From a virus: a stretch of 34,922 bases of DNA. Each line of letters starts with the position of its first letter. Position 1 is the stretch's first letter. Position numbers and translations under genes: made by a program. The notes beneath the pieces were generated by a model, which worked only from the letters and a program-made list of their open reading frames with translations, was not told the origin of the DNA and searched no databases. Location: IMG/VR virus record IMGVR_UViG_3300046167_000526, positions 1 to 34,922 of that record; one strand, given 5' to 3'. Positions 1-16,664 of this stretch are shown piece by piece.

Positions 1-84
1 ACTACAACAAAACCTGTTATATTGGCTCATATAGATGCCTGGAAGAACGAATTAGAAACAATTAAACAATTTACAAATACATAA
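1..84 (+). CDS. C-terminal end of an unidentified gene (partial)
   Basis: An open frame enters from the left edge and gives 27 residues ending ...ELETIKQFTNT before a TAA at 82-84. The A of that stop is the first base of the nrdB ATG (TAATG), which indicates translational coupling and a shared operon. The visible tail has a short hydrophobic stretch (PVILAHI) followed by a charged helix. It is too short to assign to a family. A redox partner or another nucleotide-metabolism protein would fit the neighbours, but nothing in these residues shows it. Confidence 0.6.
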   Translation, partial: TTTKPVILAHIDAWKNELETIKQFTNT

Positions 85-1055
85 TGGGATTATTTGATAA
101 AAGAATAGCCTACAAGCCTTTTGAGTACCCTGAATATTACACCGAAGGTTGGTTAAAACAAGCTCAAGCATTTTGGTTACACACTGAAATCTCAATGCAA
201 AGCGATATAAAAGATTGGAATGAAAAACTTAATGAAAAAGAAAAAAACCTCGTCGGAAATATTTTACTTGGGTTCGCTCAAACAGAATGCGCAGTTTCCG
301 ACTATTGGACTCAAAAAGTTGTTGGATGGTTTCCTAAACACGAGATACAGACAAATGGCAATGATGTTTGGATCACAAGAAACTGTACATGCAGTTGCTT
401 ATAGTTATCTTAAACGAAACATTAAAATTAGAAGACTATGAAGCGTTTTTACACGAACCTGCTACAGCTAGAAAGATTTGATAATCTTGTTGCTTATGAA
501 GGAAAAAGTTCAGTTAATATTGGTAAGTCTCTTGCTGTTTTTTCTGCTTTCGCTGAAGGGGTTAGCCTTTATTCTGCTTTTGCTGTACTATATTCTTTTC
601 AATTAAGAAATTTACTAAAAGGTATTGGACAACAAATGAAATGGTCAGTAAGAGATGAATCATTACACAGTAAAATGGGTTGTCAATTATTTCGTCATAT
701 GTGCGAAGAAGATAATCAATTACTGAGTTTATGTCGAGAAGATATAATCAAAGCTGCTGAAACAATGGTTAATCTTGAAGTTAAATATATAGACAAGATG
801 TTTGAAATGGGCGATATAGAAGGTATATCATCTAATGATCTTAAACACTTTATAAAAAAGAGGGCAAATGAAAAACTTGTGGAACTTGGTTACGTCGATT
901 TGGGCAACTACTTCGCGTATGACACTAAAGCAGCGAGTAATCTTGATTGGTTTTACCATCTTACCGGGGGTGTCACTCATACTGATTTCTTCGCTATTAG
1001 GCCAACAGATTATTCGAAAGCTAACGAAGGAGAAGACTTCGATGACATGTGGTAA
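84..1055 (+). CDS. nrdB: Class Ia ribonucleotide reductase small subunit, interrupted by three +1 frameshifts
   Basis: NrdB holds the di-iron centre and tyrosyl radical that start ribonucleotide reduction by NrdA, supplying dNTPs for phage replication. Joining the frames gives a 322-residue protein of normal length. It has ligands E68, E99, H102, E157, E191 and H194 (from TEC, QETVHAVAY, FAEG, RDESLH) and the radical tyrosine Y106, so the full active site is encoded. The gene is not one open frame. Extra bases are needed at 348-351, 409-415 and 470-479 to follow the protein; their sum of three restores the starting frame. Unshifted reading stops at TAG 402-404, after 106 residues. The start is fixed by the TAATG overlap with the upstream gene. 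The C-terminus (...GEDFDDMW) looks native. The family call is secure; whether the gene is functional, decayed or mis-sequenced is open. Confidence 0.9.
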
Positions 1056-1092
1056 ATTTCTGTAAGTAACAATGAAATTATAGAACAATTAT

Positions 1093-1335
1093 ATGAAAGA
1101 TATACTTAGTAAATTAGTTAGACAAAAAAGGTTAACACCTGTAAAAAGACTAGCAACTAGAGTAGGTTATATGGGCAGTGGTTTTTTAATCGCTGCTCAA
1201 TGGACTATAGATCCTAAATTATATATAATAGGATTTATATTAGTTATGGTACAAACGGCTTCAAGAAAACAATGGAATCTTGTAGCTTTAAATATGAATG
1301 GGCTTATAGCCTGGTTAACACACTCAATATTATAA
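1093..1335 (+). CDS. Small two-helix membrane protein between nrdB and nrdA
   Basis: This 80-residue protein begins with a basic stretch (KLVRQKRLTPVKRLATR) followed by two hydrophobic segments at about residues 26-42 and 44-59, then a polar-aromatic tail (RKQWNLVALNMNGLIAWL). That layout suggests an integral inner-membrane protein with a positive cytoplasmic N-terminus. It starts 37 nt after nrdB and its TAA shares an A with the nrdA ATG (TAATG at 1333-1337), so it is co-translated with the reductase genes. Unlike both neighbours, it has no frame break. I do not recognise the family. The tail faintly resembles membrane transporters of the PnuC kind, but this is too weak to use as a call. Confidence 0.65.
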   Translation: MKDILSKLVRQKRLTPVKRLATRVGYMGSGFLIAAQWTIDPKLYIIGFILVMVQTASRKQWNLVALNMNGLIAWLTHSIL

Positions 1336-3056
1336 TGTGGAACAATGAATGGAAAAAAGGAGAAGATTACCCTGCGTGGGGTAATACGGACGTATACAAG
1401 AAGACAATATCCGGGGGATATTTATTTGACGGAGAAACGCCTAGAGAGGCATACCAAAGAGTCGCTAAAACAGTTGCTCGTAGACTTTATAAGCCAGAAA
1501 TGGCTGAAACGTTTTTTAACTATATTTGGAATGGTTGGCTTTGCCTTGCTTCTCCAGTGCTTTCCAATACTGGTACAGATCGCGGTCCTTCCTATTAGTT
1601 GCTTTGGTATCGACGTTGCTGACAGCTATACAAGACATAGGTCAGTAAAAATTTAGAAATGATGCTACTCGCTAAGCACGGCGGTGGAGTAGGTATCGGT
1701 ATAAATCAAATAAGACCCGCTGGCGCTAGAATAACAGGTAATGGAACATCAGACGGAGTCGTACCTTTCTGCAAGATATATGACTCAACAATTCTTGCAA
1801 CTAATCAAGGGAGTGTCCGTCGTGGAGCTGCCTCAGTTAATATCAACATTGAACATGATGACTTCGAGGAGTGGCTTGAAATCAGGGAACCTAAAGGAGA
1901 TGTTAACAGACAATCGCTTAATCTACATCAGTGCGCAATTGTTGGTGATAAGTTTATGCGAAAGCTTGAACAAGGAGATAAGGAAGCAAGATCTAGATGG
2001 AGTAAATTACTTAGAAAGCGAAAAGCAACTGGAGAACCGTATATTATGTTTAAAGGAAATGTTAACAAAGCAAATCCAGCAGCATATAAAGACAACGGAT
2101 TAAAGGTGCACATGACTAATATATGTTCAGAAATAACATTAACAACTGATGAAAACCACAGCTTTGTATGCTGTTTATCATCATTAAACTTAGCTAAATA
2201 TGAAGAATGGAAAGACACTAACCTTATATACCACGCTACGTGGTTTCTTGATGGGGTTATGGAGGAATTTATTCAAAGAGCAAAAGGACTTAGAGGTTTT
2301 GAAAATGCCATTCGTTCTGCTCAAAAAGGACGAGCACTCGGATTGGGTGTACTTGGATGGCACACGTATCTCCAAGAAAAGGGAATACCTTTTGAAGGTT
2401 TACTTGCTCAGTTTGAAACTAGGAAAATATTTTCACAAATCAAAATTGAAAGCGAAAGAGCCTCGAGAGATCTTGCGGAAATTTACGGAGAGCCTTTATG
2501 GTGTGTTGGAACCGGTATGCGTAATACTCATTTACGGGCTATTGCTCCTACTGTTTCTAATAGCAAGCTTAGTGGTAATGTTTCTCCTGGTATTGAGCCG
2601 TGGGCTGCGAATGTTTTTACAGAGCAGAGTGCGAAGGGGACTTTTATTAGGAAAAACCCGACGTTAGTTAAATTATTAAAGAAACATAAACTAAACAACA
2701 ATGAAACGTGGAATAAAATATTGGCTGACGGAGGTAGCGTACAGGGTATCGATGCTTTGGATAGTATTACTATGGGCCATGACATTCCAGTTAAAGAAGT
2801 TTTTAAAACTTTTAAAGAAATTAATCAATTGGAATTAGTTAATCAAGCTGGACTGAGACAACAATACATAGATCAGTCAGTTAGTTTAAACTTGGCATTT
2901 CCCTCTGAAGCTACACCTAAGTGGTTAAACAAAGTTCATTTTGATGCTTGGAAAAAAGGTGTTAAAACCTTGTATTATACTAGAACAGAATCTGTTTTAC
3001 GTGGTGATATAGCTCAGCAAGCAATGAGTGAAGATTGTTTAGCTTGTGATGGCTAA
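1335..3056 (+). CDS. nrdA: Class I ribonucleotide reductase large (catalytic) subunit, interrupted by three +1 frameshifts
   Basis: NrdA reduces ribonucleotides to deoxyribonucleotides using the radical from NrdB. Joining the frames gives 572 residues, a short form lacking the N-terminal ATP-cone of cellular NrdA (about 760 aa), as in many marine phages. Catalytic features are present: C89 in LPISCF (first redox cysteine), N261/C263/E265 in NICSE, a cysteine pair at 278-279 (CCLSSLNLA), the radical-relay tyrosines 546-547 in TLYYTRTES, and a C-terminal CLAC (567-570) that would be re-reduced by a thioredoxin or glutaredoxin. Three extra bases at 1584-1590, 1624-1627 and 1643-1646 break the frame around C89. 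Unshifted reading stops at TAG 1596-1598. From 1659 to the end the gene is a single clean frame of 465 codons. The start (MWNNEWKKG) follows the TAATG overlap with the gene before. Confidence 0.9.
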
Positions 3057-4252: not shown

Positions 4253-4612
4253 TTAATAAGTCCATAATACGTTTTGTGCTTTATCTTTGTCTATATCAGC
4301 GTGAATAAAAGTCTTAGCAATACCAATTCTTTTAAATCCAACTTCTTTTAATATACTTGCTAATTTAAACCTGTCAGTAGAATTATTACATGCAATATCA
4401 ACCGCTAGACCTTTTGTATGAGATGACGCAGGTGTACCACCTACTTTAGCATTATGCTTTGCAGTTCTGTAACCTGAGTTAATAACAATAGATTTGCCGT
4501 ATTTCTTTCTAACAACATCAAGCATGTTAAGTAATTCTTCGCTCATCAACTGACCACTACCCTGAACATCAGGAGAGTCAAATTCTTCGTGTGTAAAATA
4601 TTTTAACTTCAT
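4253..4612 (-). CDS. M15-family D,D-/L,D-peptidase endolysin
   Basis: This 119-residue single-domain peptidase should cut peptidoglycan cross-links or stem peptides at lysis. The M15 signature is complete: SGYRTAKHNAKVGG (46-59), SSHTKGLAVDI with zinc ligands H65 and D72, and FIHADID with H104 and catalytic-region D106. The length fits stand-alone phage M15 endolysins. It has no signal peptide, so it needs a holin to reach its substrate; a holin candidate lies at 33819-34220, at the other end of the late operon. Its ATG shares one base with the stop codon of the giant virion protein gene, so the two are translationally coupled. Confidence 0.9.
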   Translation of the reverse strand: MKLKYFTHEEFDSPDVQGSGQLMSEELLNMLDVVRKKYGKSIVINSGYRTAKHNAKVGGTPASSHTKGLAVDIACNNSTDRFKLASILKEVGFKRIGIAKTFIHADIDKDKAQNVLWTY

Positions 4613-7600
4613 TATTTACTCATTCTTTTAAGTTTTTCAATTCTTTCTAATCTAGCTTTTTCTTCTTTTTCTTTCTTTTTTCTAGCTCTTGTTGCTTTTG
4701 CTTTTTCTGTACCTTCTATTTTTCTTTTAGCTTTAGCTTCAGTTTTTATAAGTTCATGCTCTTCATTTTCTGCACCTACATCCCAAGATCTCCAACCTAA
4801 AGCAAGAGCTAATCTTTGCCAAACGGTATTTCTATAATCTAAAGCTTCCGTTAAAGCATTCACTTCTGTTACAGCTCTATCTAAAGGTAAGTTTGTAATA
4901 CCTTCAGCTACAGCACCCAACACTTTGTATGATGGGCTTAAATTAAATTTACCGTCTATAGTAACATCCCATCCTCTTTTCTCAATAACATCTTTTTCAA
5001 ATTTCTTTGTTTGAATACCGCTGTAAACTTTTCTACCTTTTGATCCAATAGATGGAGCTAGATTAAAAAGAGATAATATTGTATAAGCGTGATCAGCCAT
5101 AAATCCTTTTTCATCTTGTTTATCCCACTCTACAGCAAAGTTTTTGAGAGTAGATATAAAAGCTCCAGGTAAACCAAATCCTCCTTTTAAAGTAGTATCA
5201 ATCATACCTTGTATTATTCTAGCCTGCTTTGTGCTATACACTTTTCCATACTTTTCTAATTGTTCTTTTTCAGTAAGTTCGTCATCTTCTTCTTCAAATC
5301 CAGGTATTAAAGCGAATAAAGCGTTTTGTAATGCAGAAAATATAACACTTTGAATAGTTCCGTAATATATAATTTGACTTAAATTAGAAAAATTACTTTG
5401 TGATAGCGTTTGCCCAGGCTTTCTTCTTCTGTTTTTTATATCTAAAGCAGCTTTCTTTATAGATCTGTTTAACTGTATAGGTGTATTTTGGAACGCTAAA
5501 AGTAGTCTACCTGCAGTACTTGCTTGATCAGACGATATTAAAGCTGGATCCCCTGACTGTTGAGTTTCTTCAGATATTTGACTAAAATCTTTAAAAGCCA
5601 TTTCTTCCGCTTGCTCTTTAGTGTATAAAGCTTCTCCTTCTTCGTTTACTTTTTTCAAATAAGATTTTATTCTATTTCTATAGAATGTAGCACCACCTGC
5701 TGCAATAGCAAAACTATCCGCTATTTGTGTAGGTAAAAACCCGATTTTCAATAAATAGCTTAACGCGGCTGTTGCTTTATTTTTAGACCCTTTAACCGCT
5801 CTTGCAATTTCAGCTTCATTAACATCACTTTTTAAACCAGATCTTCTTTGTTTTAGTTTAGGTGAATTAAATAACGTTGCAAAATCAGACCAGTATTGTT
5901 TTTGGTTAGCAAACGCGGCAGCGGCTTTTATAGGATTATTATCTGACCAATTAATAAAGTTAACTGTTGACAATGTTTGTAGCAACGCTGATCTTCTATT
6001 GAAAAACATTATTGCTCCAATAGAATTATTAATCCAGTTGTTCCATTTATTAGTATTATTAGTAGTAGTAGACGGTCTATTTGTACCGTTTTTCATTCTA
6101 TATAGAATATCCTTTAAAGCATCTTTGGTAGGTTCACCAAATCCAGCTTGAATTTTATTAAGATTATCCTCGCTAAATATTATGTCTGCATTTTCAATAA
6201 ATTCTGATAAGAATTCTTTCCTACCTACTTTTTCAGTTAAATTATTCAAATCAGACAATATAGTCTCTGCATCCCAAAAATCTCCAGGCTTAGCCCATTT
6301 AGGTCTTTTTGCTATTTGTTGCAATTTCCTAGCATACTCACTTAACTCAGCATCGTTATTTACATATTCAACTAGCTTTTTTTGATCTATTTCAGACAAA
6401 CCTGGTATGTCATATCCAGAAGCTTCCCATAAAGCAACCCTTATAGCTTGATCATGCGTAAATTCAGTTTCTGGTACAAGTTTACCAAGTTTCTTTATAA
6501 CAGGTCTCATTTGTTTATTAAGTGCCTTAAAGTCGTCCTTAAACGATTGCCTAGTTTCTTCAATAGCTCTTATACCTTTAAAATACGGATCTATTAAAGC
6601 ATCTTTAAAAAACTTTTGATCAGCTTCCCCTTGTTTGCCTTTACCAGCGAAAGTATAAGAAGTTAATCCTTTAAAGTCATCAAGAGATGAAGGTATAAAT
6701 AATTTAAACTTACCTTTATTCTTACCTCTCCTGTTTGCTATTGTTCCGCTAATAGTTTCGTCTGCAGCAATACCCGTGCTTCTTTCTAGCATTTTATTGA
6801 ACGTGCTGTTCATTGACTTGCTAAATTTAACGCTAGGTTTGTAAACTTTGTTTTTTTGGTTAAAAGATTCTTTGACGGTTTTTAATTCATTCATTTTATC
6901 AACAACAACATCCTTAACTCCAGCTGTTACTCTCTCTGCATAATACTCTGTTGATTGAGGAAAACCTACTTCTCTTTTTTGTATTATTTCTATTGTTTTT
7001 TCATTTACTTTTGGTAATGCAGGTGATTTACCATTTTTACCAATCCACTCAATTGTTTGTATATAATTATTTTCGTCTAATCTTTCAATTTTAACGTCAA
7101 ATGTTGTAACGATTTTACCTGTTGTTAAATCTTTAGTGGTAGTAAATGACGATGCTAGTACTCCATCAACGTATTTAGATTTTTTACGGTTAACAGCTTT
7201 TCCACCATTGTTCATTTTAGTAGGTGTGTCTTGAACTGTTAAAGCAAGCTTTCCGTCTTTATAAACTTTTGCTTCAATAAGCTCTTTATTCAAATCATAT
7301 ATCTTATAAGTAGCTTTTCTACCCATAAAGTCACCTTCGCCGTAGCCAACTATATCAACTCCACCTTGTGAATTTATTTCACCTCTTGTGGTTAGTCCAT
7401 CTTTCTTACCTAAATTTATTTGTAAATTTGCTGTTGGTTTATCAAATCTATCCCACCACTTCATATCAGTGCTACCGTCTCTGAAGGATATTAACTTCCC
7501 GTTTTGAAAAGCTACTACATATCCATTGCCATCTTCATTGTAATTTTTCCACTGCGTACGAGCGGTATCTAATTCTGACTTATCATTTGGTTTTCTAGCG

Positions 7601-10600
7601 ATCAAGCACCAACCATTGAAATCTTTACCCCAATTACTATCAGCTACTTTTCTCATCGCCATTTGCCCGGCCTTAGAGTCAACTACATCATATATGGTTA
7701 CGCCTTTAGGTAAAGATCTTTTATTACTAAACTCTTTTACGGTATCTGGGTTTATTCTCCTTGCTTTTTCTTCCTTAGCGAATTTATTTATTAATTCATC
7801 TGGGTTTTTATAAGCATAAGGATCTATTTTATTCACCTCAGATAATCTAATTGCTTCTTCTATTTTGTAACCGTCTTCTGGAAATATAGTATAACCATTA
7901 ACAGTATAATATAAAGCTAATTTTTTGTATTTAGACTTTTTATTATCTGGAACTTTTAATCCATCAGCCCATTTAAAAAGCTCATCAACTTGACTAGGTA
8001 TGTCTTTTAAATCAGGCCTTTTATTACGTAGCACATTTTCATATTCTTTTCTTTTACTTTTAGAAAACTGTATACGTAGTAGTGATTCATGATTGCTGTC
8101 AGGTTCAAGTCCAATTTCGTTTAAATCAACTGCATCAGATTTAGAAGATTTAAGAGATGTTGATTTAAGAGCTTTCTCAAAAGATTTATCAACAAAAATA
8201 CTAGATTTACTCTCAAGTTTTTTTGCACTATCATTAGTTAAAGTAGGAGTAGCTGAACGCATTAAAATAACATACGTCTTTTTATCAGGATTATCTTTAT
8301 TGTACCATCTTTCATCAAATTTCTGCCTAATAAACACCTTTCCGTCAAACTTTGCTATATCTAAATTTAAAGGGTTTTCATTTAACATGAAGTCACCTAG
8401 ATCGCTAAAAGATATATAATTAACAGGAGTTTCCTTGTCTGCATAGTATTCCTTAACAATACCTGTGTCTAATATTAAATTTCTAGTGTCAGTGCCTTTT
8501 AAAAGATTAGCTACGTTGGCGTAAAAAACGTCGTGATCTACCCTGTAGTTACCAGTTTGGGTTAAGGTTACTTTTTTATCATTTAACAGTTTTTCTAATT
8601 CATTATATACATTTTGTACATTTTTGTTTTGTAGATCATTTTTTAAAATCTTTTCCTTGTACTCTTCAGATATATTTTTGTTTAATTCATTATTTTTTCC
8701 TTGCCCTTTAAGTATAAACTTTCCTAGCCTAGCCGTTTTTCCTGATTTTATTTCCCATGCAATCTCAAGTCCCTTGTATTTGAATATTAGATCCGGCTTT
8801 GAAGAGTCTACTTGCAATTCTGTTTGTAGCACAACCAGTCCAGGTATTTTTTTTGCTATTTTTACTATGTTGTCGATTGCTTGTTGTTCAGTTGCTTTCC
8901 ACCCCTCTTCTTTTATTTTATTTAAAAATTCAGTGTATGGATCTATAACAAGGTTTGTAAGCCTGTTAAAATCGTCTTCAGGCATTATTTCTCTCAAATT
9001 AGCAATTGCTATTGATCTTTGAGTGTTAGTTTCGGCAGAGGTTATTTTATTAGCAGACTCTATTATTTGCTCATTAGACACACTAAACTTAACGGTACCT
9101 CTGTCAGCGTCTCTAAGTATTTGATTTACAAAATTGTCATTTAGTACTTCGCCTTGAGCTTCTTGATTTCCTTCAAAAGCTTTACTTATAGCAGAATTTT
9201 CATTTTGAATTTCTTTTGTAAAAATTTCAAAAGCTACTTCTTCAGCTATAGCTTTACCTAGAGCTTCTCTTTTACCTCTTATAAGTTTTCCTTTTTCGTC
9301 AATAAATAAACCTACAAAATCAGCATCAGAAACTTTGTCAGCAGGCACTCTTCTAACTATCTCATTACCAGCAGTAGCTCCTCTAACTAACGTTTTTTCA
9401 CGATCAATCTTCTGACCGACCCATTCTGGATATGGTACAAAGTTTGGTGCAAATTCTTCTTGCACTACTTCTTTACCTCCAACGTTTACAGTTACTTTCT
9501 TGCCAGTAAACTTACCACCTACAGATTTTTCAATTGCTTGAGGAATACCGCCACTTACTTTTTTACCGTTGTCTTTACCCATTAAAAAAGTAGTAGTCAT
9601 GTTCTCTACGATAGCTTTCTTATTTTTTATAAGATTCTTTTCATAAGTACCATCCTTTAACTTACCTAGTCTCTGTATAACAAGTTTAGGGGCAGCCTCA
9701 GGGTCTCCTACAACTTTTCCTATGTTTTTCCTAATCTCAGCAATTAAAGGTGTTGTAGCAGCATTAGCTCCTCTTTTATCTGTCATCTTAGTTGTTAAGT
9801 TCGACAGCACATTAGTTAGCTTATCTGTTATAGCTGTTACAGTAAAGTTAGGTATAACATTACTTTTAGTAATTGGAGTGTATTTTCTTTTTTCTTTTTC
9901 TTGAATAGTTGTATCTTCTTTTGCTGCAATATTTTTAGCTACGCTAACATCTTCTTTAAATCCACCTTCACCTTCTTTCTTAAATTTAGCCAAAGCTTCT
10001 TTCACTCTGTTTCTTACACCGTACTGACTACCTATTATATAGCCACCTAAATCATCATTTGATTCAGGATTAAAAGCCATTATATTCTTTTTTAGTTGAA
10101 CACCTGCAACTTCTGTAAAGAAGTCATCCCAACTTTTACCGTAAACATTGTCAGCAACAACGCCGTAACCAGCAGCGATCTTTTTAATTAAAGGGTTAAG
10201 CATACCTTTATCGATGTCATCTATGACCTTAACAGCATTTTTTTCTTTAAATTCTTTATTTGTTGTACCTAAAGGCACCATAGATTTTAGCTGATCACCA
10301 ATTCTTTTCTCATTTTTCTTAGTGTCTTCTTTAATTTTTTCTTTGATCTCTGTACTTACCGCAGGGTTTGCTGTTTCTTTTTTCTTAGCTAATCTTATTT
10401 TTGTTTCTAAATTAGTTTTAGCTGTTTGAAAATCTACTTCATTGTCAAAATCAAACTCATCCAAGTTATCTAATTGCTCTTGCAATTCTAATGATTTACT
10501 AGACTTAATATCAGTTTTAATTTCAGCGTCTATTTTCTCTTTAACTAATTTTCCTTTAGCTTGTTTTTCTGTAATTGCTTTTTGAGCTTTAGTTAATTTC

Positions 10601-12825
10601 CCTTTTTCTATGCTTTTATTGTAATCTTTTACGAAATTGTAAACATCTTTACCGCTATTAAACTTTATACCCGTGAGTCCAGCGTTTTGTAAAGCTCTAC
10701 GAATTACATCACCAATTTTTGTAAATACGTTTTCATTAAATTTTATATCACCAGTAGCGATAGCATCTGAAAACAAAGTCAAAACCTCTTCGCTCTGAGT
10801 AGCTTTATCTGATTCTTTATATCGCTTTAATCTATTAGCAAACTCACTGTTTTTAATTTGATTAGCATCAATTTTGTTTATATATTCGTTTAAAGACGTA
10901 CCTAAAGCTATTTGTGTTTCAGGTGAGTCTTTTACTGTTTGAAATAAAGTAGCATGTAGAAATTCATGAGCGGCTACATTCACAGCAAAATCCTTATTAG
11001 CTATTTCTTCGTTTATAACTATGGTTTGCTTACCAGTTTTAGAATCTTGCAGCACATAACCATGTTCTGAAGCTGCTTTTTTTATCAAGTTCCTATCTTT
11101 AACTATTTGATCCGCTTGCTTCTGATCTTTAGCTATTTCTATGTTTACAGATTTAACGTCTTCAGCAATTTTCATTACTTTTTCTGTAGTATTTCTAACT
11201 ACAGTAGCAGCAAGTTCGTTGTCTATAGTTTTTACTCTTTCTATTTGAGGAGTAGTTAAAGCCTTGTCATTTACTCTCTTTATTTCAGAGTTTAATTTTG
11301 CTTTTTCTTTTTGTAGCTCAACAACTTTTATCTCATTATTTTCAGTTAAATTTAAAGGTTTTATCCTGTTTAAAATACCTTGAGTTTCCGCAGCGTTAGT
11401 TTTTATTTTGTCAGCTTGTTCAGAAGTGATTTCTCCATTGTCAAGCTTTGTATTTAGCTCTTCATTAAGTATTTTTTCAGAGTTTTTAATTTTAGATAAA
11501 TTAATTTCTATAGCGTCAGTTTTTGTTTCAGGATTAAAAACATCTACTATATTACTATAATCACTATTTTTTACTTGTTTATTTATTTTTACTCTGTCTA
11601 TATTTGTTTTTAAATTCCGCAACTGCCCAACTAAACTTAAAGGAGCACCTGCTTTTCCTACAACACCTTCAGATATTATATCTTTAGCGTTCATTTCTTG
11701 ACCAGCTACAAATCTTCCAGCAACTTCACCTGTACTACCACCTATCATTTCTACAGCTCCGGAAGTGGTTGCACCAGCAATTGGAGCGCCTCTAAAACCA
11801 GCTTTAGCAATTTTTCCACCAACACCTTTAGCTACGCCTAGAGTAGCCAGCTCGGTAGCAGCTATTGTAAGACCTCTACCGATTGCTTTGTTTTTTAAGT
11901 CAGCTAATCGCTCTGGGTCTTTTAGTATTTTTTTAATTTCTTTAGAGTCAAGTCCACCCGCTTCTTCTTGTAGCAACTCAGAGAAAGTAAGTCCTGTTTC
12001 CATAGCCATCATAGAACCACCCATTATGCCTGGAAGAACTCCAGCTCCACCACTAACAGCAGCACCAGTAGCGGCTCCAGCGGCAGCAGCAGCTTTTACT
12101 TGATTAGAATAATATATAGAACCTGCTTGGCTTGCTACAGAACTGATTAGCATACTAGGAAGTACTGACGGATTTTTGTAAGCACCTTTAATGAAGCCCC
12201 AAAACCCACCACCTTCTTCTTCATAAATTCTATCAAACTCTTTCATTTCAGCAGATCCTAAATTTTTTCTTGCTATTTCTTTGTTCTTATTTACAAAGTC
12301 TGCAACTTCTTTATCAGTAGAATCTCCTCCTGAAGACAAAAGGTCAAAAGCTGGCTCAACAATTTCACTCTGCTTCAGTCCTTCTTTCCAAGAACGATGC
12401 ATATCACTAAAAAAGTCCACATATCCAGGTATGGTATAAAAACTTTCGCTATCCTCAATTTTATCTTGATTAGCTAAGTCTTGTTCGTATTGCTCAAACT
12501 CTTCTTTAGTAACTTGGTAGCCATTTACAGAAAAAGGAAAAGAAGGTTGCAGTTCTAAAGATGGGTCAGCTGGCGCTAAAGGAACATCTTCGACTTTTTC
12601 AGTATCTTGTGATTCCGATGGAGTATCTACCGAAGGTGATTCCGTAAAACCTGCTTGCGATGCTGTCATTGGTTGCTGCACTGCATCCGCATCCTCTACA
12701 GTGCTTGTTGGAAAATCCTGTGGTTCGTCTTTAATAGCGATAGCATCGGGAAATCTTAATAAAAAAGACTCTACTTTATCTTCCGGCAGGTTGTAGGTTT
12801 TATTGTTTACTTTATATTTTGGCAT
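4612..12825 (-). CDS. Giant multidomain internal virion (polyvalent/ejection) protein, 2737 aa
   Basis: By size and place in the late operon this is probably packaged in the head and ejected with the DNA. Visible layout: an acidic P/S/E-rich N-terminus (1-100); a Gly/Ala-rich hydrophobic part (about 215-400) able to associate with membrane; coiled coil (about 440-600); an HEFLH zinc-peptidase motif (H620, E621, H624); a long Lys/Glu-rich part; a PD-(D/E)XK-like nuclease motif (D1345, E1358, K1360 in KPDLIF and AWEIKSG); a Trp/Gly-rich beta segment (about 1730-1950); a C-terminal helical domain (about 2050-2640) like those of large polyvalent proteins in podoviruses; and a Lys/Arg/Glu tail. 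V-K/I-Q-F-S-x-S motifs at 1245-1250, 1585-1590 and 1999-2004 lie between segments. One uninterrupted 8.2-kb frame supports good sequence quality here. Domain activities are inferred, not shown. Confidence 0.85.
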   Translation of the reverse strand: MPKYKVNNKTYNLPEDKVESFLLRFPDAIAIKDEPQDFPTSTVEDADAVQQPMTASQAGFTESPSVDTPSESQDTEKVEDVPLAPADPSLELQPSFPFSVNGYQVTKEEFEQYEQDLANQDKIEDSESFYTIPGYVDFFSDMHRSWKEGLKQSEIVEPAFDLLSSGGDSTDKEVADFVNKNKEIARKNLGSAEMKEFDRIYEEEGGGFWGFIKGAYKNPSVLPSMLISSVASQAGSIYYSNQVKAAAAAGAATGAAVSGGAGVLPGIMGGSMMAMETGLTFSELLQEEAGGLDSKEIKKILKDPERLADLKNKAIGRGLTIAATELATLGVAKGVGGKIAKAGFRGAPIAGATTSGAVEMIGGSTGEVAGRFVAGQEMNAKDIISEGVVGKAGAPLSLVGQLRNLKTNIDRVKINKQVKNSDYSNIVDVFNPETKTDAIEINLSKIKNSEKILNEELNTKLDNGEITSEQADKIKTNAAETQGILNRIKPLNLTENNEIKVVELQKEKAKLNSEIKRVNDKALTTPQIERVKTIDNELAATVVRNTTEKVMKIAEDVKSVNIEIAKDQKQADQIVKDRNLIKKAASEHGYVLQDSKTGKQTIVINEEIANKDFAVNVAAHEFLHATLFQTVKDSPETQIALGTSLNEYINKIDANQIKNSEFANRLKRYKESDKATQSEEVLTLFSDAIATGDIKFNENVFTKIGDVIRRALQNAGLTGIKFNSGKDVYNFVKDYNKSIEKGKLTKAQKAITEKQAKGKLVKEKIDAEIKTDIKSSKSLELQEQLDNLDEFDFDNEVDFQTAKTNLETKIRLAKKKETANPAVSTEIKEKIKEDTKKNEKRIGDQLKSMVPLGTTNKEFKEKNAVKVIDDIDKGMLNPLIKKIAAGYGVVADNVYGKSWDDFFTEVAGVQLKKNIMAFNPESNDDLGGYIIGSQYGVRNRVKEALAKFKKEGEGGFKEDVSVAKNIAAKEDTTIQEKEKRKYTPITKSNVIPNFTVTAITDKLTNVLSNLTTKMTDKRGANAATTPLIAEIRKNIGKVVGDPEAAPKLVIQRLGKLKDGTYEKNLIKNKKAIVENMTTTFLMGKDNGKKVSGGIPQAIEKSVGGKFTGKKVTVNVGGKEVVQEEFAPNFVPYPEWVGQKIDREKTLVRGATAGNEIVRRVPADKVSDADFVGLFIDEKGKLIRGKREALGKAIAEEVAFEIFTKEIQNENSAISKAFEGNQEAQGEVLNDNFVNQILRDADRGTVKFSVSNEQIIESANKITSAETNTQRSIAIANLREIMPEDDFNRLTNLVIDPYTEFLNKIKEEGWKATEQQAIDNIVKIAKKIPGLVVLQTELQVDSSKPDLIFKYKGLEIAWEIKSGKTARLGKFILKGQGKNNELNKNISEEYKEKILKNDLQNKNVQNVYNELEKLLNDKKVTLTQTGNYRVDHDVFYANVANLLKGTDTRNLILDTGIVKEYYADKETPVNYISFSDLGDFMLNENPLNLDIAKFDGKVFIRQKFDERWYNKDNPDKKTYVILMRSATPTLTNDSAKKLESKSSIFVDKSFEKALKSTSLKSSKSDAVDLNEIGLEPDSNHESLLRIQFSKSKRKEYENVLRNKRPDLKDIPSQVDELFKWADGLKVPDNKKSKYKKLALYYTVNGYTIFPEDGYKIEEAIRLSEVNKIDPYAYKNPDELINKFAKEEKARRINPDTVKEFSNKRSLPKGVTIYDVVDSKAGQMAMRKVADSNWGKDFNGWCLIARKPNDKSELDTARTQWKNYNEDGNGYVVAFQNGKLISFRDGSTDMKWWDRFDKPTANLQINLGKKDGLTTRGEINSQGGVDIVGYGEGDFMGRKATYKIYDLNKELIEAKVYKDGKLALTVQDTPTKMNNGGKAVNRKKSKYVDGVLASSFTTTKDLTTGKIVTTFDVKIERLDENNYIQTIEWIGKNGKSPALPKVNEKTIEIIQKREVGFPQSTEYYAERVTAGVKDVVVDKMNELKTVKESFNQKNKVYKPSVKFSKSMNSTFNKMLERSTGIAADETISGTIANRRGKNKGKFKLFIPSSLDDFKGLTSYTFAGKGKQGEADQKFFKDALIDPYFKGIRAIEETRQSFKDDFKALNKQMRPVIKKLGKLVPETEFTHDQAIRVALWEASGYDIPGLSEIDQKKLVEYVNNDAELSEYARKLQQIAKRPKWAKPGDFWDAETILSDLNNLTEKVGRKEFLSEFIENADIIFSEDNLNKIQAGFGEPTKDALKDILYRMKNGTNRPSTTTNNTNKWNNWINNSIGAIMFFNRRSALLQTLSTVNFINWSDNNPIKAAAAFANQKQYWSDFATLFNSPKLKQRRSGLKSDVNEAEIARAVKGSKNKATAALSYLLKIGFLPTQIADSFAIAAGGATFYRNRIKSYLKKVNEEGEALYTKEQAEEMAFKDFSQISEETQQSGDPALISSDQASTAGRLLLAFQNTPIQLNRSIKKAALDIKNRRRKPGQTLSQSNFSNLSQIIYYGTIQSVIFSALQNALFALIPGFEEEDDELTEKEQLEKYGKVYSTKQARIIQGMIDTTLKGGFGLPGAFISTLKNFAVEWDKQDEKGFMADHAYTILSLFNLAPSIGSKGRKVYSGIQTKKFEKDVIEKRGWDVTIDGKFNLSPSYKVLGAVAEGITNLPLDRAVTEVNALTEALDYRNTVWQRLALALGWRSWDVGAENEEHELIKTEAKAKRKIEGTEKAKATRARKKKEKEEKARLERIEKLKRMSK

Positions 12826-15245: not shown

Positions 15246-16664
15246 TTATCTTCCGTAAGTTGCACCGACTGCAAATAATTCTTTTAATCCACCTGGATCT
15301 GTTGTAGCATCTGTTTTCATAGTTACTGTAGCATAATAAGCTTTTATACCTGTACTGCTAGGCCCCATTATTACTTGGCCAGCTATAGGTGTGGGTGAAT
15401 TGTTTGGTATTGCTGCTGCATATCTGTTTTGTTTTCTATCAAACCCTGCTCTGTATTGAACATTACCATCTAAATAAGCACCTTCGTCATAGCTATATAT
15501 TTTAGTATAAGTGTTAGGGGTAGCTGGGGTAGTAACATCTACTGTTGCTTGATTAACATTATTAGTCCAACTACCACTTGATACATCTGCTCCAGTTTCA
15601 TCAGAAACTAAAGATGTAACTTCCCATCCATTACTACCCTCGTAATTAATTGTTTTAAAAGTCTTCATAGAGGTAGGCTCTGGGTTTAAAACAAACTTTA
15701 CAGAAGCATCATTATTTACGCCGTAAAATTGACCTCTTGGTACAGAGTTATTACTATTGTCGGTTAATGAGTAATGTTTATATACGGAATCAAGATTAGT
15801 TGTGTAAAATTGACCTCGAGAGCCAAACATAAAACTAGGTTTGTAAGTATAAAAACTACTCCACCCGTTTGTAGCTTCATTAAACGATAGCGTAGCATAA
15901 TCACCGTTCAGTTGCTGCATAGATAATGTATAATTTTTATTATATATATCATAGCCTCCTATTATTTTACCGGTTGAAGAGACTAATCCAGACTGATCTC
16001 TAAAGAAATCAACCATACCATAGTTTGATATTTCAGTTATACCATCCATAGATAATCTAAGTACCGCATTTCTGTTTCTGTCAGTAAAATATTTTTGATA
16101 ACCGTAAACAGCAAAAGACTCGGGATTTGTAGATATACCAAACTCCCCAGCGTAAGCTATTATTTGACCTATAACTAATTTAGCAGATGTTGTTATTGCT
16201 CCGCCTTCAGCAGAATATATAGCGTCTTTATCTATTAAAGCTCTATTTACTTTTCTTTCTTGGAATATAATTAAGTTAGTATCTTCAGCATAAAGCTTTT
16301 GTATACTACCATTAATAGGATCCACACTCCTAGTTATTTCTTCTGCAACACTGAATTCATTAGTTCTATTTATACCTGTTCTTGAATTTAAAACACCTGA
16401 ATATATTAATGAATTTGATAGTCTTGATTGATTGTCGTTGTCCTCAACTAAGTAAGCTTTAACTCCATAATCAGTAGATGTATTGTTATAACCGCCTCTA
16501 ATTCTAGACTCTTCAATGTACCAATCTTGATCAGTGTCTTCTGTTTGAGGAGACGACCATGGTAGTGATGTAATAGCTGAATCTACCAAATCTTCATAAG
16601 GCACATCAGATATCTTCTTAACAGCATAAGAGTTAAAGTATGGTACTTCAAGTGTTATAGACAT
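15246..16664 (-). CDS. Tail/portal-vertex structural protein (472 aa), companion of the 1410-aa protein
   Basis: A beta-rich protein with aromatic and Asn/Gly-rich repeats (NYNNTSTDYG, GGYDIYNKNYTLSM, GWSSFYTYKPSFMFGSRGQF). It has the block NLIIFQERKVNRALIDKDAI followed by YSAEGG, then GEFGISTNPESFAVYGYQKY and NGITEISNYGM-like text, which I associate with the large stabilisation or muzzle proteins of crAss-like and related podoviruses. In some of those phages this part is fused to the longer upstream protein; here it follows the 1410-aa gene as a separate gene, 40 nt later. It probably sits at the tail end with that protein. There is no enzymatic motif. Confidence 0.65.
   Translation of the reverse strand: MSITLEVPYFNSYAVKKISDVPYEDLVDSAITSLPWSSPQTEDTDQDWYIEESRIRGGYNNTSTDYGVKAYLVEDNDNQSRLSNSLIYSGVLNSRTGINRTNEFSVAEEITRSVDPINGSIQKLYAEDTNLIIFQERKVNRALIDKDAIYSAEGGAITTSAKLVIGQIIAYAGEFGISTNPESFAVYGYQKYFTDRNRNAVLRLSMDGITEISNYGMVDFFRDQSGLVSSTGKIIGGYDIYNKNYTLSMQQLNGDYATLSFNEATNGWSSFYTYKPSFMFGSRGQFYTTNLDSVYKHYSLTDNSNNSVPRGQFYGVNNDASVKFVLNPEPTSMKTFKTINYEGSNGWEVTSLVSDETGADVSSGSWTNNVNQATVDVTTPATPNTYTKIYSYDEGAYLDGNVQYRAGFDRKQNRYAAAIPNNSPTPIAGQVIMGPSSTGIKAYYATVTMKTDATTDPGGLKELFAVGATYGR

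Follow-up and report, generated by a model that had tools for sequence, protein, structure and literature searches.

Matching border tags between exchangeable modules of a giant polyvalent-type phage protein, with a possible role as cutting sites

Polyvalent proteins of phages are very large multidomain chains with exchangeable modules, encoded in virion gene regions and commonly, not obligatorily, carrying an embedded zincin-like HExxH domain. Iyer et al. (2017) put forward the release of the domains by embedded peptidases, in analogy to the polyproteins of RNA viruses; the passages of the main text used here describe no cleavage motif or border tag (PMC5512222). An LPD38-type protein of phage JC1 has been found in virions by mass spectrometry (PMC9144972). 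In giant phages such as SPN3US, the head proteins processed by a phage protease include some that pass into the host on ejection (PMC10052503). In this study, we analyzed the IMG/VR virus record IMGVR_UViG_3300046167_000526 (positions 1 to 34,922; the window, 34,922 bases), in which a single open frame encodes a giant, predicted virion protein of the polyvalent type. Three short motifs of this protein, VKFSVS (tag 1, junction J1), IQFSKS (tag 2) and VKFSKS (tag 3, junction J3), are very probably repeated module-border tags under selection, and from the comparison of sequences we believe it rather likely that they are cutting sites.

The window protein resembles polyvalent proteins in most respects. 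Several domains lie in one chain (core 1, two exchangeable modules and a C-terminal core), and an HExxH motif is followed by a distal glutamate, with the order of elements as in Iyer et al. (PMC5512222), the structural match being weak. The giant gene belongs to a single run of genes that also includes a muzzle gene of crassvirus type and further virion genes, a context in which packaging of the protein is likely. Unlike the catalogued polyvalent proteins, it matches no LPD or PolyVal Pfam model, a feature that is diagnostic and not defining. SPN3US has a separate head protease that cuts many head proteins, whereas the tag here is largely confined to one protein. In the polyproteins of eukaryotic RNA viruses, such as those cut by potyvirus NIa, the site consensus is common to the junctions of one polyprotein and species-specific, through coevolution of protease and site. 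A recurring junction consensus is also found within the window protein, and border sequences of its kind are matched within a protein and different between phages; its domains and peptidase type are different, and cleavage is here what we infer. Polymorphic toxins have a conserved left part, a short border motif and a variable C-terminal effector. The window protein likewise has a conserved left part, a border motif and then a variable module, but its tags stand at several internal borders, match one another within the protein and are followed by a conserved C-terminal core. In the open-access literature, no report was found of FSxS with phage, of five typical tag sequences, or of such tags or tag covariation. 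Processing by peptidases was already proposed in 2017; judged by this open-access literature only, the border tags and their covariation appear to be new.

The sequence-only reading of the window had described three FSxS motifs that divide the protein into blocks of about 1250, 340, 410 and 730 residues. The residues given for them were exact (Table 1), the blocks measure 1250, 340, 414 and 733 amino acids, and no other FSxS site occurs in the 2737 amino acids. In composition shuffles, FSxS had a mean of 0.43 and reached three or more in 0.9% of 5000, and [VILM][KQR]FSxS had a mean of 0.016 and reached three in 0 of 5000. The motif is real in the window protein; as a strict consensus it was rejected as too narrow, the final S being often replaced in relatives, where the stable core is approximately [VI]K[FY]S.

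Relatives were collected with two patterns of the C-terminal core (C-core), FN[KN]MLER and [ED]AD[QI]KFF, in which the tag was not used. The scan gave 80 IMG/VR loci with 41-90% identity, named here by L numbers. In 58 non-redundant proteins, [IV][KR]FS occurred 54 times vs 6.6 in shuffles, and the density of the tag motif was 3.29 per 10,000 residues in the family vs 0.34 in neighbouring open reading frames (ORFs), which shows that the tags are largely confined to the giant protein. Three non-homologous junctions carry the tag; one lies where core 1 ends (RG[TN][VI]K[FY]S), and the other two where a HAD-like module (SIKFSKxPKGISVFDFDDTL) and the C-core (QQAK[IV]KFSKxLxxxFNxM) begin. Near J1, 307 ends of BLAST high-scoring segment pairs fell in the five-residue bin starting at the tag, and 0 fell in the preceding 25 residues. 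The core 1 end is conserved in 20 non-redundant proteins and continues into 18 unrelated right-hand flanks. For example, core 1 of L002 ends with GTVKFSMS, followed by an unrelated module and then KPSTKFSKTMNSTFNKML, and L003 and L006 have VKYSMK and then yet another module. In L311-L314, a leader of the pattern LGLxPxSNHxSLLxIQFSK accompanies module 3, in L314 with a shorter and more divergent sequence. A J1-type tag (SSLMFSK or LQDIQFSLG) is found 18 to 33 residues upstream of IQFS. The nuclease-like module 2 is absent between these two tags; what the window holds there is therefore a cassette with a tag on either side.

The same relatives gave several minor observations. The commonest middle module, found in L005, L028, L051 and others, is HAD-phosphatase-like (VFDFDDTL) and lies approximately 200 amino acids before J3, on which its end (NVKAVKDVLDTFDVKGKVQQAK) borders. 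L311-L313 carry an additional segment resembling LSKSVDKAAKS ahead of the C-core, between module 3 and J3; it may be a further, degenerate tag. The tags VKYSMK and TKLSMK of L014 are another matching pair. No split loci were found among the relatives when gene fission at tags was looked for; L014 was considered as one and rejected, as it is an otherwise intact relative with apparent contig frameshifts (7180-7250 and approximately 10800). The contigs of the C-core relatives L088, L089 and L090 were binned with Bacteroidota metagenome-assembled genomes (Sphingobacteriales, Cryomorphaceae and Saprospiraceae), which suggests Bacteroidota hosts.

A scan of other polyvalent proteins revealed matched tag pairs around ADP-ribosyltransferase (ART) modules and comparable border tags in LPD38 proteins. 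In a prospective test, ART modules were recruited by their own sequence, with the tags left out of account. The tags on the two sides of a module were identical in at least 4 of 5 residues in 26.6% of 64 non-redundant cases vs 4.0% of permuted pairs (maximum 18.8% in 20,000 permutations). The z value of this match was 7.1 solely at the junction windows and approximately 0 in windows 22 to 80 residues away. Examples are KSEDR/KSEDR, QESSS/QESSS, NILNQ/NILNQ, VRYSLRQ/VRYSLRQ, LGTPA/LGTPA and SNIPP/SNIPP, and in some chains a tag recurs 3-5 times (there are five copies of STAR in L258 and of RFAV in L240, and four of YSLR in L257). Not every ART module has the FS form: only 18 of 79 carried [FY]S[RKVLMQI] at most 16 residues upstream. 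When repeated four-letter words were sought with no prior motif, 18 of 205 proteins were rich in repeats at p < 1e-6 vs 2.2 expected from shuffles, some of the 18 being ordinary domain repeats. In the window's own family, the J1/J3 pairs include VKRSA/VKRSA (L045), VKRSV/VKRSV (L048), VKESKGL/VKESKGL (L058) and KKSIAR/KKSLAR (L035).

The LPD38 proteins are an unrelated family from phages of other hosts. FS[KRV] occurred in them 140 times vs 72.5 in shuffles, with border contexts such as FDPxNPDIRYSR and EGLPLFSR (tags DIRYSR and GLPLFSR). A Pfam search for LPD38 in 296 genomes of the phylum returned mostly short proteins. The 60-residue flanks of tags from both families were pooled and clustered. 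The J1 left flank had 18 right partners, the LPD38 right flank had 12 left partners and the HAD right flank had 8 left partners. Partner switching per clustered site was 0.48 for tags vs 0.00-0.25 for seven control motifs; since the value of 0.25 came from a control with [FY]S before acidic or other residues, partner switching alone is weaker evidence than the covariation test. The Pfam domains LPD1 and ART-PolyVal end approximately 9 residues upstream of tags in L172 and L170.

The HEFLH motif, which had been put forward as part of a processing enzyme, lies where it was reported, and the comparison of H620 and E621 across relatives was extended to H624 and the distal E680, all invariant in 21 aligned sequences. 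The AlphaFold model of the peptidase domain has a mean predicted local distance difference test (pLDDT) score of 78 and shows a helix, three strands, the HExxH helix and a helix with the glutamate. A Foldseek search of this model against the PDB gave no match below E 0.001, and in VIA-align the single domain-wide match of note was to the lethal factor catalytic domain with Z 6.1 over 154 residues, a weak value within the noise range. The catalytic residues were thus borne out, and the assignment of this domain as the protease acting on the tags was not; that the embedded peptidase is the cutter seems to us possible and somewhat doubtful.

The tag 3 junction is the one junction modelled. In the model of module 3 with the C-core, the linker of lowest confidence (model residues 396-410, pLDDT under 50) has tag 3 (model residues 408-413) at its edge. 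The sequence-only reading had taken the motifs for cleavage or linker signals. Because the tags stand at core/module transitions, lie at a predicted flexible linker in the modelled junction, and are alike within one protein but not from phage to phage, their role as border signals is strongly supported. Cleavage is plausible; sites recognised by a single specific protease would be expected to match within a protein and to differ between phages. On our reading, the protein has a border tag of its own, repeated in the three motifs, between independently exchangeable modules. Most likely the motifs serve as processing sites, at which a protease of matching specificity, possibly the embedded HExxH...E metallopeptidase, would cut. 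The freed nuclease-like module, module 3 and C-terminal core would then work on their own, either in the virion or once they have been ejected into the host. As a whole, the reading of the tags as specificity-matched polyprotein processing sites that separate exchangeable modules, possibly cut by the embedded metallopeptidase, is one that we hold with modest confidence. More broadly, polyvalent proteins may be true polyproteins with a private, fast-changing cutting code in each phage lineage, in which one tag is copied to every border, a protease of the lineage keeps pace with it, and incoming modules must adopt the new tag; we lean slightly towards doubt on this generalization.

Several results weigh against processing at the tags. 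Several relatives have no recognisable tag, and cleavage is proposed here ahead of any observed fragment. In the J1/J3 strings, which were extracted by hand, J3 had F/Y in 20 of 21 cases where J1 had F/Y and in 0 of 12 where J1 had R/K/E, and these are not 33 independent cases, because two F/non-F changes, each common to J1 and J3, suffice on the C-core tree. The p value of this covariation is 3e-4 at 10 clades and 0.34 (not significant) at 3 clades; the ART set is the stronger evidence. Identical codons between paired tags were found at 54 of 91 positions in the ART set vs 38.0 expected, and in the window's family two proteins shared all codons between their tags (7/7 in L058 and 5/5 in L048). 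The density of tags was not higher in proteins with HExxH, a comparison in which many frames are incomplete. The virion RNA polymerase of phage N4, also with such a domain, is packaged uncut (PMC5512222). A full-length protein in virions is not decisive against cleavage, since processing could follow ejection.

The shared codons are what would be expected if the tags were seams of module shuffling at the DNA level, formed by recombination at short repeats or by duplication of a border on insertion, with no role in the protein. Matches within a protein would then arise naturally, and modules between tags are indeed present, absent or swapped. However, serine codons from both blocks, AGY and TCN, occur at one and the same junction (J1, J3), and 50 junction 12-mers, counted by junction type, comprise 38 different DNA sequences. 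Codon agreement between the J1 and J3 tags of one protein in the window's family is 58 of 95 vs 48.8 expected, and the tags remain conserved though the cores have diverged to 40-60% identity. Codon choice mostly reflects constraint at the protein level, with some copying at the DNA level, and we consider pure DNA seams unlikely. A role in the protein could also be that of docking or packaging peptides, bound uncut by a shared partner (a part of the same protein, the capsid or an ejection component), for example by strand addition. The short strand-like sequence and the near confinement of the tags to the giant protein agree with this, and their covariation also fits a co-evolving binding pocket; no such partner is known, and one tag per border, not per protein, is what the separation of modules would need, so that docking appears improbable to us.

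Plain flexible hinges, which would aid the unfolding of the chain and its passage through the tail, would explain why a flexible linker is predicted where tag 3 stands. But hinges need no specific sequence, and the match within a protein with the difference between phages would be left unexplained, which makes them a very unlikely explanation. Short motifs can also match by chance and be inherited with their domains, and homologous sites are counted several times in simple tallies. That a few short matches, spread by descent, account for the tags is nevertheless hardly credible, since non-homologous junctions share the tag, the pattern was not reproduced by shuffles, control motifs or shifted windows, and the prospective ART test contradicts it. 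With processing sites as the preferred explanation, the 2017 proposal becomes a testable prediction with named cut sites, and the tags offer a sequence handle on the delivery by phages of many effectors in one chain. As a practical rule, huge unannotated proteins can be divided into modules at the tags; this can be used for annotation because the repeats within a protein reveal which tag it has.

Table 1. Features of the giant protein in the window
Feature	Residues	Positions	Strand	Basis
Giant polyvalent-type virion protein (predicted), 2737 amino acids		4612..12825	-	single open frame
N-terminal part and conserved core 1	1-1244	9094..12825	-	ends RDADRGT directly before tag 1
Zincin-like metallopeptidase domain (predicted)	~560-760	10546..11148	-	AlphaFold model, weak lethal factor match, invariant residues
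HEFLH	620-624	10954..10968	-	sequence; H/E/H invariant in alignment
Border tag 1 (J1), VKFSVS	1245-1250	9076..9093	-	sequence and relatives
Module 2, exchangeable	1251-1584	8074..9075	-	unrelated modules in its place in L002, L003/L006
Border tag 2, IQFSKS, before module 3	1585-1590	8056..8073	-	IQFSK/IQFSR in 4/4 relatives L311-L314
Module 3	1591-1998	6832..8055	-	relatives L311-L314; model
Border tag 3 (J3), VKFSKS	1999-2004	6814..6831	-	kept in most of ~80 relatives
Conserved C-terminal core	2005-2737	4615..6813	-	80 IMG/VR relatives

A Pfam search of the giant protein gave no match over the cut-off in any part, module 2 included, and its full sequence matched no phage record in tblastn. 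Relatives of module 2 were not found by a viral scan; by eye only, it has a PD-(D/E)XK-like signature, PDLIFKYKGLEIAWEIKSGK. Many beta hairpins are predicted in the second half of module 3, with weak MORN-like matches in BFVD. The muzzle gene lies at 15246-16664 and matches PF25729 and PF25731; it is this one gene that would link the window to crass-type phages, and membership of the crass-like group is not claimed. Directly downstream of the giant gene, at 4253-4612, is a gene for a 119-amino-acid M15-type peptidase-like protein (endolysin-like, by eye), and in L014 it likewise comes after the giant gene. At the left end of the window (84-3056), ribonucleotide-reductase-like genes appear broken, by eye only. 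The small-subunit-like sequence is divided between ORFs 84-404 and 438-1055, the large-subunit-like ORF has a late start at 1659, and two odd small ORFs (1093-1656) lie in between.
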